Below, piece after piece: positions 28,698-56,384 of a DNA stretch of 64,000 nt. Numbering within the stretch: position 1 is the first letter of the stretch; each line of letters begins with the position of its first letter. The position numbers were made by a program, and so were the translations under genes. The DNA is from Sorex araneus (taxonomy: Eukaryota > Chordata > Mammalia > Eulipotyphla > Soricidae): the NCBI RefSeq assembly GCF_027595985.1, contig NC_073304.1:217746000-217809999 (forward strand). Reading direction: 5' to 3'. A model generated the notes under the pieces. It worked only from the letters and a program-made list of their open reading frames with translations. It had not been told where the DNA came from and ran no database searches.

Positions 28698-28985
28698 GTC
28701 CGGGGGAGTCGGTCCCGGGCAGCCGCTCAGCCCCCTGCCCCCGCCCGCCCGCCCGCCCTCCCTCCGCCTGGGCCGGGCCGAGGATGCGGCGCTGCGTCTC
28801 GGCGGCCAGGCTCGCTCCCCTCCAGCCCGCTTGCTAACTTCCCCGGCTCGGTTCCTGCGCGCCCGCCGGACCGCCCCGTCTCCCCGCGCCCGCCTCCGGC
28901 TCGGGTCCTCCAGGCGCGTGTCTCCGGCCAGGCCCTGCGCGCCCGCACTCCCCGCCCGCGCCCCGCGCCCCGTCCTCGCGCGGTC

Positions 28986-29334
28986 ATGCTGCCCCTCTGC
29001 CTCGTGGCCGCGCTGCTGCTGGCCGCCGGGCCCGGGCCGAGCCGGGCCGACGAAGCCATCCACTGCCCGCCCTGCTCCGAGGAGAAGCTGGCGCGCTGCC
29101 GCCCCCCGGTGGGCTGCGAGGAGCTGGTGCGGGAGCCCGGCTGCGGCTGTTGCGCCACTTGCGCCCTGGCCAAGGGGATGCCCTGCGGCGTGTACACCCC
29201 GCGCTGCGGCACGGGCCTGCGCTGCTACCCGCCCCGGGGGGTGGAGAAGCCCCTACACACGCTGATGCACGGGCAGGGCGTGTGCATGGAGCTGGCGGAG
29301 ATCGAGGCCATCCAAGAAAGCCTGCAGCCCTCTG
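28986..29334 (+). CDS. IGFBP4: IGFBP4 exon 1, coding part
   Basis: It encodes residues 1-116: the signal peptide and the N-terminal IGF-binding domain. The ATG has a purine at -3. The exon ends one base into codon 117 at the donor GTAAGG. Confidence 0.97.
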
Positions 29335-32300
29335 GTAAGGTGGCCCCGCCTGGCCCTCCCTTCCGCGGGGCCCCCCCTCCTAGAAGCCCCTTCTCCATTC
29401 CCACCGGGCCTGGAAGGTCCGTCCCCTACCAGTGGGGTGGGGGGTGGGGGCGAAGGGCCCGGCTGGGGTGGGTGGGGGGAACAGACTCATCCCTGGCCAC
29501 GAGTCCCAGCAGCCTGTTGCCACCATCTCAGAGGACTCTGCCCCATCTGTCCATCCGAAACCTCCCAAGGTGGGGGCCAGACGGAGGGGGACAGTGTCAG
29601 AACCAGCTCCAGGGCCCTTACACATGCAAGACAAGTAAGTGCTTCCCCCCCCCCCCCCCCGCCTCCCCCCTCCCCGCGGCCCCTCAGAGTGCCTATTTGG
29701 GGAAAAATGGTGCGGGAGTAGCCCTGGAAGCTGGACAATTAAGTGATGGGGTCAGCCTGCAGTCCACGAGGGGGTGGGGTGCCCAGGCCAGAAAAGTAGA
29801 GGAGGTGGGGGGGCTTCTGTTCCTCTGGCGCCACAGTGAAATTCTGGGCTGGGGAAGCCAGGCTGGACCTGGGGTGGGGGGTGTGCAGTGGGACAGGCCT
29901 ATTCTAGGGACTTTGGGGGGGGGGAGGGCGTCACAGGTCTCCCGTGTGACTCTGAGAGGTGCTAGGAGGTGGGCTCTCCCCTCTGGCGGGCCTGGGCACC
30001 CCCACCCATGCCTTTCTCCCACACGTGCCAGTCGAGGTGCCGAAGAGGAGTGAGTCTTGGCTTCCAGCCCAGAGCTGCAGAATCCTAAGTGGTGCGAGAG
30101 AGACAAAGACAGAGACAGGCTCCGAAGGCCTTTGCCAAACTTATTCTTTTCCCGCGTGGCGGGGGCGGGGGGGGCACAACGCTCACCTCTGGGCTCTGTT
30201 CTTAGCAATCTGAGCACATCAAGTGGGCTCAGGGGACCACAGGGGGTGCTGGGGGTCAAACCCAGGTAGCCCCACGCAAGGCAAATGCCTTACCCACTGT
30301 GCTATCCCTCGGCCCCGCACTCCCAACTCATCCTTAGCTTCTTCTCTTTTCTCCTCTTTCTCAGCGAGCGTCTAGATCTTGCCTGAGAACCTCTCTTCTC
30401 CCCCCCACTTCTCTTTCTCTTTGTTCTTTCCTGCTGTCTCTTTCCCTCAAGTCTCTGCAAAGGCATTCTCGAGTTCTCCTTTCCTGGCGGCCTTCAGCCC
30501 CTCCCCAGCTGCTCCCCTGCCCCCCACCCCTCACCCCCCTTTGCTATTTCTGCTGCCTCTCCCGCCTTCTGGCACTTTCATCTCCCAGGGCTCTCTGGCT
30601 CACGGCTCACGACTGGCTTTGTCTGGCTTTGTCGTCTGTATTTCTGTCTTCTGGGCCACTCTTAGAAGCTCTGTCTGCTCTCTGGGTGGCTGCCTGTGTC
30701 TCAGCCCCTCGCTGTGCCCTCCCCGTGCCTCTGTGGGCGTCTGTCTCCTTTCCTGGGCCTTGAAGCTGCCATTGTTGGGGCCCGGATGCCGGGACTCTGG
30801 CCCCAAGCTTCCTGCCCTGGGTCCCAGACGGCTGGCTCCACTTCCTCTCTCCGCCACATGTTCACGGGAGGAGAGCAGGATGCAGGGAAAACAGGAAGGA
30901 GGTGGACCCCAGGGGTCTGGGGCCTCCATGCCCTTCCGGCAAAGGGGCTGGCCGGGCGGCGAGAGATGGCTCAGCAGAAAACATCCCAGGAGAAATGCCA
31001 GCCTGCACCATCTTAAAAGGGGGTCCTGGGAGAGGCAGGGCTCCATGCCAGCGGGAGGAGAGGGCTGGCATCAGACAAACTGGGACCGTGGGCTCCCCAG
31101 GTATGAGCCGGGGCACGCTCCCTTTGTTTCTCCTCGACTGGCCAGAGGGAGCCTGCCCCAAATTAGGGTGGCCTCGGGCGGAGGAGGGGATTCCGAGTTG
31201 CTGGCACATCATGCACTCAGCCCTGAAAAGATGTGCTGGGTCCCTGCAGAGGGACAGGCCTAGGTGGTCCCTATCACCCCTCCTCCCCCCTTTCATTCTC
31301 CACCCCTGCAGAGTATCCAGGTGCCTGGAGAGGGAAGGAGGAAGCCTAGAGGACCCTCAGGAAATGTGGCGCCTGCTTGGTCAAAGCCGCTCTGCCGTGA
31401 GGCATCCTAGTAACGCTGGGCCCAGGGGCAGCAACTCTGGGAGAGCGCCCCCTTGAGTTGTGCGGCGGCCCTGTTTGGTTTCTGTGGGACCGGCTGGCCG
31501 GAACTGGGCCCTGGGCCTGTTCTCCACCGCTCATGTCAGCCTCCCCTGCACCAGGGCCAGGGGCTAAGTGTGGCCGCCTGGGTCCTGAGTATGGCCGTCC
31601 TGCCTGGTGTCGCTGGGTAGAGGGACCAGGTCTTCCTGACTTTTCTTCTCAGGGCTGAGCCTCTGCAGGTGACTGGGCCCAGCAGCCACTTGGCTGCCCC
31701 GTCCCCGGCCTCTGGCCTAGCGGCTCGCCAAGTGCCCCAAGGGAGTGTCCCCCTTTCACCTCCAGCCCTTGCCCCACCCCTAGCCCCAATCCTCCGTGCC
31801 AGCTTTCAGCGCCAGGAAAAGTGCCGAGAGCTCCTGAGGTCCGCAAAATGCATCAGAGAACCGGCCCCCAGCTCCTGTGATCAGGGATGGGGGTCCGAGG
31901 GGGAGGGTATGTGGGTGTCTGGGGAGGTCTCGCATTGTGCTCTGGGTCCCCGGGGGCAGCGCAGGGGCACTTGAAGGCTGGGTTAATTTTTAGTCAACAC
32001 AGCAAATATCATGCCCCGACTTCAATACTGGGAATCGCTTCATGTCATGGGAACAGAAATTCCCAGAATGTCTCTGCTGGGGGAAGGGAGGGAGCTTTGC
32101 TTTAGCTGGCAGGACTCTTTCCCTTCACAGACCCGGAGCGGAGGGTGGCTCTACTCACTGCCCCTCCACCCCTTTCCTGCTGGCTTCACTCCCCCTCTGT
32201 CTAGGGTGGGGGTGATGCCAGGACCCGCCTCACAGAGTTGGAGGCGTCTCTCTCGTGTGGAGTCAGAACCCACTAGATCAGATGGAGGGGGCGGGGTGCG

Positions 32301-45479: not shown

Positions 45480-45960
45480 ATGGTGTGAGAGTGTGTGCAT
45501 GTGTGCGTGCATGTGGATGGTATGCACATTGTGTGTGTGCATGTGTGTGTGCATGTGTGAACATAAAATGTATGGTGTGTCTGCATGTGTGTGTGCATAT
45601 GCATGTGTGGATGGTATGCACATTGTGTGCATGTGTGTGTGCACGTGTGAACGTAGTGTGTATGGTGTGTGTGCATGCATGTGTGTGAATGTGCATGTGT
45701 GGTTGGTATGCACATTGTGTGTGTACATGTGTGTGCATGTGTGAACATAGTGTGTATGGTGTGTGTGCATGTATGTGTGTGAATGTGCATGTGTGGATGG
45801 TATGCACATTGTGTGTGTACATGTGTGTGCATGTGTGAACATAGTGTGTATGATGTGTGTGCATGTATGTGTGTGAATGTGCATGTGTGGATAGTATGCA
45901 CATTGTGTGTGTGTGTGTGTGTGTGTCTGTGTGTGTGTGTCTGTGTGTCTGTGTGTCTGT
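45480..45960. repeat. 94-bp minisatellite of TG-rich units
   Basis: The marker TATGCACATT (with one variant) recurs at 45521, 45615, 45707, 45801 and 45895, spacings of 94, 92, 94 and 94. Each unit also holds GTGTGAACATA or a relative. The array ends in a plain GT run. Confidence 0.92.
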
Positions 45961-46445
45961 GTAGCTGATCTCCTGGAGCCAGACCCCTTCCTGGGAAGTG
46001 ACTGTCAGCCTGCAGATCCCTGCACACTAGTTCAGTGCATCCGGGAAGCCTCCTCCTGTCTGGCTGTCTATGAGGACCCCTGATGCACTGAATCTTCTGC
46101 CCACCTGGGGAGCTAGTACCTGGCTGCTGATCTGGTGCCATCTGCATCTTCAAGAGGGGGCTGCAAGCTTGTGCCAGCTTGGCCCCAGTGTGGTACTCAC
46201 AGCTCTCTGCTCTCCCAAGGCACAGGTCAGAGCACCAGCATCGGCAAGGGACAATGGGCAGTTACATGCTGGACTTCGCGCCTCCACAGTTCCAAGGTTT
46301 CTCACAATGCCTTGCCCTGGGCCCCAATTTCTGGGGGAGAAGGCAAATGCGTGGACGCTGAGGATTAAACTTTAGGTTCCTAAACCAAATGCAAGGAGAC
46401 TGCCTCTTTGCTTAAAGCATCTCTATTCTGATAAGAAAGATGATG
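45961..46445. other. Intergenic DNA, no repeat recognised
   Basis: Mixed composition with no gene I can support. Confidence 0.5.
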
Positions 46446-53166: not shown

Positions 53167-53189
53167 GGGAGTTGGATCATCCAGGGGAG

Positions 53190-53385
53190 TGGGCAGGGCT
53201 GGAGAGTGGGCGGGACTGAAGAGTGGGCTGGGCTGGGCTGGAGAGTGGGCGGGGCAGGGTTGGGGTGGGCGGGGCGGGCTGGAGAGTGGGCGGGGCTGGG
53301 GAGTGGGAGGGGCTGTGCTGGAGAGGAGGCGGGATTGGAGAGGGGGCGGGGCGGGGCTGGAGAGGGGGCGGGGCGTGAAGAGTGG
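53190..53385. repeat. GC-rich minisatellite
   Basis: About ten imperfect units around GGCTGGAGAGTGGGCGGG, many containing GGGCGGG boxes. Confidence 0.9.
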
Positions 53386-53837
53386 GACCATACCCTGCAG
53401 TGCCTATTAATTACGTAGATAGAAGCGGAGGCACGAGGGTAGTGGTGAGTGGTTTGACTTACATAGGCACAAATGAGGAGGTGGCAGAAGTGAACTCAGG
53501 CGAATGTTCTTTTTGCCCCTCCTCCCCATGGTGGGAGGGGGGTGGGATGGGAGTGGTGTCTTTGAGTCCCGGCATGGACTGGGGATCCTCAGGCACCGGG
53601 AAGAGGTTAAGTAATGGGGTATCTTGTGAGTAGAAGGAAGAAGGTCTTGATGGGAGGGTAGGGTGGCAGATTCCGGGAAGAACGGTCTGTGCCCTCCAGA
53701 ATGAGGGAGGGAGAGCGTTAGCATGTTATCATAGCCGGTTGAGCGCAGGCTTTGCAGGCGGGAGGCCCGGGCTTGTGCAGAAGCACCCCTGGGTATGACC
53801 CCCCAGACCTTAAACCAAACAGAAAGACCAGAAGAGG

Positions 53838-55212: not shown

Positions 55213-55312
55213 GTGTCAAAGCTGAAGGCTGTGGAAATAACATCTCTCTTGGGACACACACAGACCTTTCTCCCATCTCACACTCCAGTGCTCCAGGTTC
55301 TGTGCTGTTTAT

Positions 55313-55531
55313 TTTTGTTTATTTATTTATTTTTGCTTTTTGGGTCAGACCTGGCAATGCACAGGGGTTATTCCTGGCTCTGCACTCAGGAATTACTCCT
55401 GGCAGTGCTCAGGGGACCATATGGGATGCTGGGAATCAAACCTGGGTTGGCCGCGTGTAAGGGTTAGGGTTAGGGTTAGGGTTAGGGTTAGGGTTAGCCC
55501 TACCCGCTGTGCTATCTATTACTCCAGACCC
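55313..55531 (-). mobile_element. Sor SINE carrying a telomeric insertion
   Basis: A good antisense copy bounded by the 17-bp target duplication GGTTCTGTGCTGTTTAT at 55296-55312 and 55532-55548. Its head is interrupted at 55459-55497 by telomeric hexamers. Confidence 0.96.
55459..55497 (+). repeat. Interstitial telomeric array (GGGTTA)6
   Basis: Six perfect GGGTTA units at 55461-55496 with a partial unit on each side. The array replaces about seven bases of the SINE head between GCCGCGTG and CCCTACCCGC. Confidence 0.98.
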
Positions 55532-56384
55532 GGTTCTGTGCTGTTTATATGAGAACTCAGCCCAAGTTTGGTGAATGAATGAGTGAATAAATGAATGAAT
55601 AAGTGACATTCTCCCCTCTTCGCCCTCGTCCCGTTCCCCTCCTTTGGTTTCCCCCTTCTGTGGCCCCCCTGCCTTCTCAGGCCTGCTGGACCTTTCCCTG
55701 TTGGCAAGCCGGGGCTGGGGAGAGGGCGCATGCCTGAGACTCCTTCCAGGAAACAGTTGTAAAGTCAGTCTCTGCTGGCTCCAAGGGAGCAGGGCTGGGA
55801 AAGGGACTAGTTTTACTGGCGCAGAGGGACACTGCCTGGCCAGGACTCAGGTGGCAAGGTACACATTTGGGGCAGGGTCCTACGTGAAGGCGAGCTATGA
55901 ATATGATTGCACCCCCTTGTTCACACACTGAAGCCCCCGATCACCGCGTGACTGTGTCTGAAAACGGAACCGTTCGAAGGTAAGAAGGTCCCAAGTGTGG
56001 GGTTCCACCTCGACAGGATGGGTGACCTTATAAGAAGGGGTAAGAGATCTCGCGCATGCCCCGAGGAGAGGCCGTCTGAGGACACAGTGAGGTGGTGGCC
56101 GTCCAGAGCCCTCACCGGAACCCAACCAGGCTGGCATCCTCCTCTCAGACTTCCAGGCTCCAAAGCAGGAGGGAACAAATGTCTGTTGTTAACCCATGGA
56201 GTCTATGGTATTATTAGTTCTTTAATGGTAACCGGAGAGGACTAGTGGGGGTGGGGGGTGGGGGAGGGTCCCTGATCCATCCTACCCTTTGCCATAGTCC
56301 TTCAAAGCTCAGTGTACCAAGGCCCAGGCCCAGTCGGTTCTGGCCGCAGCCTGTCTTGGTTTGAGAGCTCTTCTTCTTAGACTT

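Follow-up and report, generated by a model that had tools for sequence, protein, structure and literature searches.

A short interstitial telomeric sequence inside a Sor-type SINE of Sorex araneus

Genomic Context of the Locus

We analyzed a 64,000 nt stretch of the Sorex araneus genome, hereafter the window (C3:217746000–217809999), together with the complete assembly of 2,405,902,106 bases in 65 contigs. An Rfam scan of the window produced no matches, and a Pfam scan produced a single one among 10 of the 166 stop-to-stop frames of at least 110 aa. An IGFBP domain is found at positions 28950–29460 (+ strand; frame near 29.05–29.33 kb), nearest to that of insulin-like growth factor-binding protein 4 (IGFBP4) and matching PDB entry 2dsp with an E value of 3.2e-57; this region is probably an IGFBP4-like first exon, which fits a mammalian genome. 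The window also contains a complex, TG-rich long minisatellite at 45491–45962, best described by a period of 94 with 4.5 copies, and a G-rich minisatellite at 53187–53387, with nested periods that include 17, 22, 39, and 80.

Structure of the Telomeric Array and Its Host SINE

The locus studied here is a SINE on the − strand (positions 55313–55531), matched by many other copies dispersed in the window, with its T-rich tail at the left and its 5′ end at the right in the orientation of the window. The element is presumably a Sor SINE; Sor is described as a shrew SINE in PMC11240701 and PMC7279448. The 17-bp target-site duplication that the sequence-only reading had placed around this copy was confirmed, with GGTTCTGTGCTGTTTAT at 55296–55312 matching exactly the right copy at 55532–55548. 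Comparison with other copies assigns positions 55498–55531, which begin with CCCTACCCGCTGTGCTATC on the + strand, to the 5′ part of the SINE (− strand). This part carries a 4-bp insertion, TATT (55517–55520), which is private to the host SINE among the window copies, being absent from 40 of 40 other window matches to the neighboring SINE letters.

Tandem Repeats Finder delimited a perfect telomeric array (100% matches, 6-bp period, 6.3 copies) at positions 55460–55497, with the G-strand on the + strand. These 38 nt in phase comprise six GGGTTA units (55461–55496), plus partial units that include an extra G at 55497, in agreement with the six perfect hexamers and partial units noted from the sequence alone. 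The 12-mer TTAGGGTTAGGG, allowing up to one mismatch, occurs five times in the window and always within the array; the mean count in 100 shuffles was 0.49, with a maximum of 3, and none attained the observed 5, which dismisses a chance origin of these letters. The array is also the sole perfect hexamer array of at least three units that was detected in the window by a simple pattern scan, from which shorter units were omitted. In the assembly, (TTAGGG)4 was counted 1931 times in the forward and 3853 times in the reverse orientation, although these counts lump terminal arrays with overlapping matches, and the places listed are all within the first 715 bases of C1.

The Array Replaces the Usual Slot of the SINE

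In the other window copies, the usual arrangement at this point is ...GTGCAAGG-CAAACG-CCCTACCCGCTGTG..., whereas the host SINE shows AAGG followed by five GTTAGG units, GTTAG, and then CCCTACCC. The AGG at 55460–55462 (+ strand) is common to the AAGG of the SINE and to the telomeric phase. Because it fits the SINE equally well, we took as inserted only the 35 nt at 55463–55497 (+ strand), which replace 6 nt and whose final G possibly belongs to the SINE. The AGG is thus 3 nt in register, situated at the 3′ end of the putative break. The replacement of SINE letters that had been proposed from the sequence alone therefore stands, while its size is 6 nt, or 5 nt if the last G is from the SINE, and not about seven.

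To examine other copies we used as a probe the host SINE with its array swapped for the usual slot, which retrieved 81 matches in the window. Two of these are the halves of the host SINE itself, and 53 of the remaining 79 cross the slot. The six slot letters are kept in 49 of the 53 crossing matches (CAAACG in 15, CAAATG in 12, and close variants in the others), with gains or losses of +3, +13, −1, and −2 nt in the other four; telomeric letters in the slot were found in none of the 53. The T preceding the array at 55458 is present in two of these 53 copies too, and need not belong to the insertion event. The ancestral letters of the slot are putative, as they are read from other copies of the SINE.

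The search was extended to the 2.4-Gb assembly using patterns spanning the junctions of the array, with match counts that are lower bounds and for which the best candidates alone were scored. When up to three mismatches were allowed, the left junction was found in a single place, its own site, with zero mismatches. Since the reversed control yields as many places (1 and 1, vs. 1 and 0 for the pattern itself), only this exact match is meaningful. The right junction, also with up to three mismatches, was found in two places, its own site and, with three mismatches, C12:305841678, with none in the controls; at the latter, the SINE has a small deletion, and TTAGGG units are absent from the whole 3-kb locus. 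No second copy with an array in the same slot was found among the window copies or with the junction patterns across the assembly. The sequence-only reading had proposed that hexamers in many Sor copies would point to a trait of a subfamily; neither the window matches nor the assembly patterns revealed any such copies. Because array-bearing junction patterns were found only at this locus, we rejected this origin, and on the available copies it is unlikely that the array is a Sor subfamily trait.

Other Telomeric Gains in Sor SINEs

A partial census of telomeric arrays in Sor SINEs was done with exact anchors, which miss diverged copies, and covered the three arrangements of anchor and telomeric units given below. 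The anchor CCATATGGGATG followed by TTAGGGTTAGGG at 32–62 bases was found in two places in the assembly, the window locus and C3:117190631 (locus L012), whereas CCATATGGGATG preceded at 1–31 bases by TTAGGGTTAGGG was found in none; the controls were zero in both cases. L012 contains nine perfect TTAGGG units close to the 5′ end of a Sor SINE (locus positions 1555–1647), located between two exact copies of TTACAAATGCTATACTATG that form 19-bp direct duplications, and it resembles the “duplication” class of insertions in a table of PMC2246262. We take L012 as an independent event because its array sits elsewhere in the SINE and is of this duplication-like class.

The same anchor followed at 32–62 bases by the opposite-orientation sequence CCCTAACCCTAA was found in four places (L014–L017), with zero in the controls. 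L014 is a decayed copy, in which a pair of units is followed by one that has diverged. L015, L016, and L017 retain the CAAAC(G/A) slot, and in them the SINE's own CCCTACCC has turned into about CCCTAACCCTAACC. L016 and L017, separated by about 0.5 Mb on C11, share 94.7% identity over 3 kb and are therefore copies of one duplicated region; the gains at these three loci probably correspond to two events, judging from this identity. These three loci show a gain of units from the telomere-like letters of the SINE that is short, on the opposite strand, and with the slot intact.

It could be speculated, although we consider it improbable, that telomeric repeats are recurrently gained in the 5′ region of the Sor SINE, where the SINE strand carries the telomere-like GGGTAGGG. 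If true, the repair of breaks would add repeats in one orientation and the gain of units would add them in the opposite one, making a large SINE family a source of telomere-like sites across shrew chromosomes.

Origin of the Array

It is very probable that the array is a short interstitial telomeric sequence originated in a single repair event, comprising a break in the SINE, extension by telomerase, and rejoining. A double-strand break would have occurred within the already inserted Sor SINE, with the loss of around 6 bp; the left end, ...AAGG-3′, in register over AGG, would have been lengthened by around six repeats, most likely through the copying of the RNA template of telomerase by the enzyme, and the new end, ...GGTTAG, would then have been rejoined to the opposite side of the same break. 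The insertion of telomeric DNA at a break within the SINE, already advanced in the sequence-only reading, is supported by the replaced slot, by the 53 other crossing matches without telomeric letters, and by the array-bearing junctions, found only here; the flanks are intact and nothing indicates a host function for the array. A randomly phased insert would have at least 3 nt in register at 1.8% of the cut points of the host SINE, considering both strands, and 10.8% of these cut points offer it when the best phase is allowed; three nt in register at one locus are suggestive rather than conclusive. The end of the inserted strand, GGTTAG, presumably agrees with the end of the template of vertebrate telomerase, an agreement of little weight as six phases are possible. 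Three (TTAGGG)n insertions at breaks induced by a nuclease in human cell culture are reported in a review (PMC5110952), whose account of human insertion polymorphisms of that kind includes none with telomere sequence.

The repeats could also have been captured at the break by end joining, as a preformed telomeric fragment and without telomerase at the site. The product would be identical, and this is one of the two routes in an earlier proposal by the authors of PMC2246262. However, the 3 nt in register lie at the end available for extension by telomerase, and such register is in excess at the loci published in that work, so that we consider capture of a fragment rather unlikely.

Alternatively, the array might have arrived with the SINE, either present in its source copy or formed during retrotransposition. 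The 17-bp duplication encloses both the SINE and the array, and both the array and the duplications are unmutated, so their decay cannot separate the two events. Against this, the other SINE array, at L012, is located at a different position, and no amplified source was seen, because both junctions were found with the array only at this locus; arrival with the SINE therefore appears very improbable.

Replication slippage that locally expanded telomere-like letters of the SINE is a still weaker candidate. The array is adjoined by CCCTACCC, itself telomere-like, where about one C-strand unit has been gained in some copies, and CCCTAACCCTAA is found there at three loci. Nevertheless, these known gains amount to around two units in the opposite orientation and leave the CAAAC(G/A) slot in place. 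The window array, by contrast, has six units, with the G-strand on the other strand and the slot gone, and this argues against slippage; moreover, the usual slot provides just AGG as a seed. Slippage from CCCTACCC was thus rejected, as the loci that do show such a gain (L015–L017) look different, and we see very little chance of it. Finally, an assembly or sequencing artefact is hardly credible, as ordinary SINE sequence, collinear on both sides, and then unremarkable DNA surround the array in an assembly of 65 contigs and, as L012 shows, arrays of this kind recur.

Age of the Array and Chromosome Rearrangement

The greater youth of the array, claimed from the sequence alone, is likely but unproven, as the array may have formed while the SINE itself was integrating. 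This order is suggested not by decay but by the failure to find these junctions in any further copy. Compared to a consensus of 15 window copies, the host SINE differs at 5 of 148 non-CpG sites and at 5 of 16 CpG sites, with 2 of the 15 copies being less diverged and 13 more diverged. At this divergence, a 38-nt array as old as the SINE should have accumulated about 1.3 changes, with a probability of 0.28 of seeing none; likewise, 1.15 changes would be expected in the 34 nt of the target duplication, also unmutated, with a probability of 0.32 of seeing none. The perfection of the array therefore does not show it to be much younger than the SINE, and was discarded as uninformative for dating; repeat arrays may be homogenized anyway. 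The host SINE, which is among the less diverged copies, gives a maximum age only. Accordingly, the description of the event as recent and as precisely datable by the interrupted SINE was not borne out: an unmutated array is to be expected 28% of the time even at the age of the SINE, which sets only an upper limit.

The two halves of the SINE and the two target duplications have kept their places and their order, which indicates that the break was closed locally. This collinearity gives no support to the connection that had been drawn with the chromosome rearrangements of Sorex, and nothing here bears on shrew chromosome fusions.

Comparison with Known Interstitial Telomeric Sequences

Short interstitial telomeric sequences (ITS) are defined by at least four TTAGGG units with less than one mismatch per unit. 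The array, perfect and with 6.3 copies, falls within this definition, and its position is internal, with ordinary DNA extending 55.4 kb to the left and 8.5 kb to the right within the window. It is also inserted into a recognizable older sequence with a change of the flank typical of end joining, in that a 6-nt slot is replaced when compared to other copies. Among the matches listed, we found no published account of this locus in the literature on interstitial telomeric sequences of Sorex or shrews.

ITS loci from mouse, rat, human, and chimpanzee were compared in PMC2246262 (Nergadze et al., 2007). As given in that paper, a deletion accompanies 50% of the informative insertions in rodents and 52% in primates, at least 1 nt is in register at 67–80% of the loci, and at least 3 nt are in register at 33–40% of the loci, vs. 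at most 1.56% expected by chance. The same source reports 16 primate cases inside repeats, interpreted through the consensus of the repeat, and one chimpanzee case with a 7-bp deletion and AGG in register. The shrew array resembles these short ITS in having a small deletion and 3 nt in register, namely AGG, in lying within a repeat, so that the ancestral letters can be taken from its other copies, and in its length of less than 50 bp, as in most of the primate cases described there. It differs from them in belonging to another lineage. Some of the ITS loci described in horse are polymorphic (PMC7215372); according to this source, a deletion is the commonest modification (about 30%) and 31 of 40 informative loci have nucleotides in register, both being features shared with the shrew array.

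A different class, the TERC-ITS, is exemplified by a mouse lemur locus inside a SINE (PMC8537989), which resembles the shrew locus in that a SINE is interrupted by telomeric repeats. However, the shrew array lacks the telomerase-RNA-like flank described for that class, and has SINE on both sides, with both flanks aligning to other SINE copies right up to the array.

The array is thus a real and ordinary short interstitial telomeric sequence. It sets an upper age limit on one event of this type and could readily serve as a marker of presence or absence and of variation in repeat number, although it opens no new question. To a repair scar that has already been described in primates, rodents, and horses, it adds a shrew example, with ancestral letters that can be read from the sister copies of the SINE.
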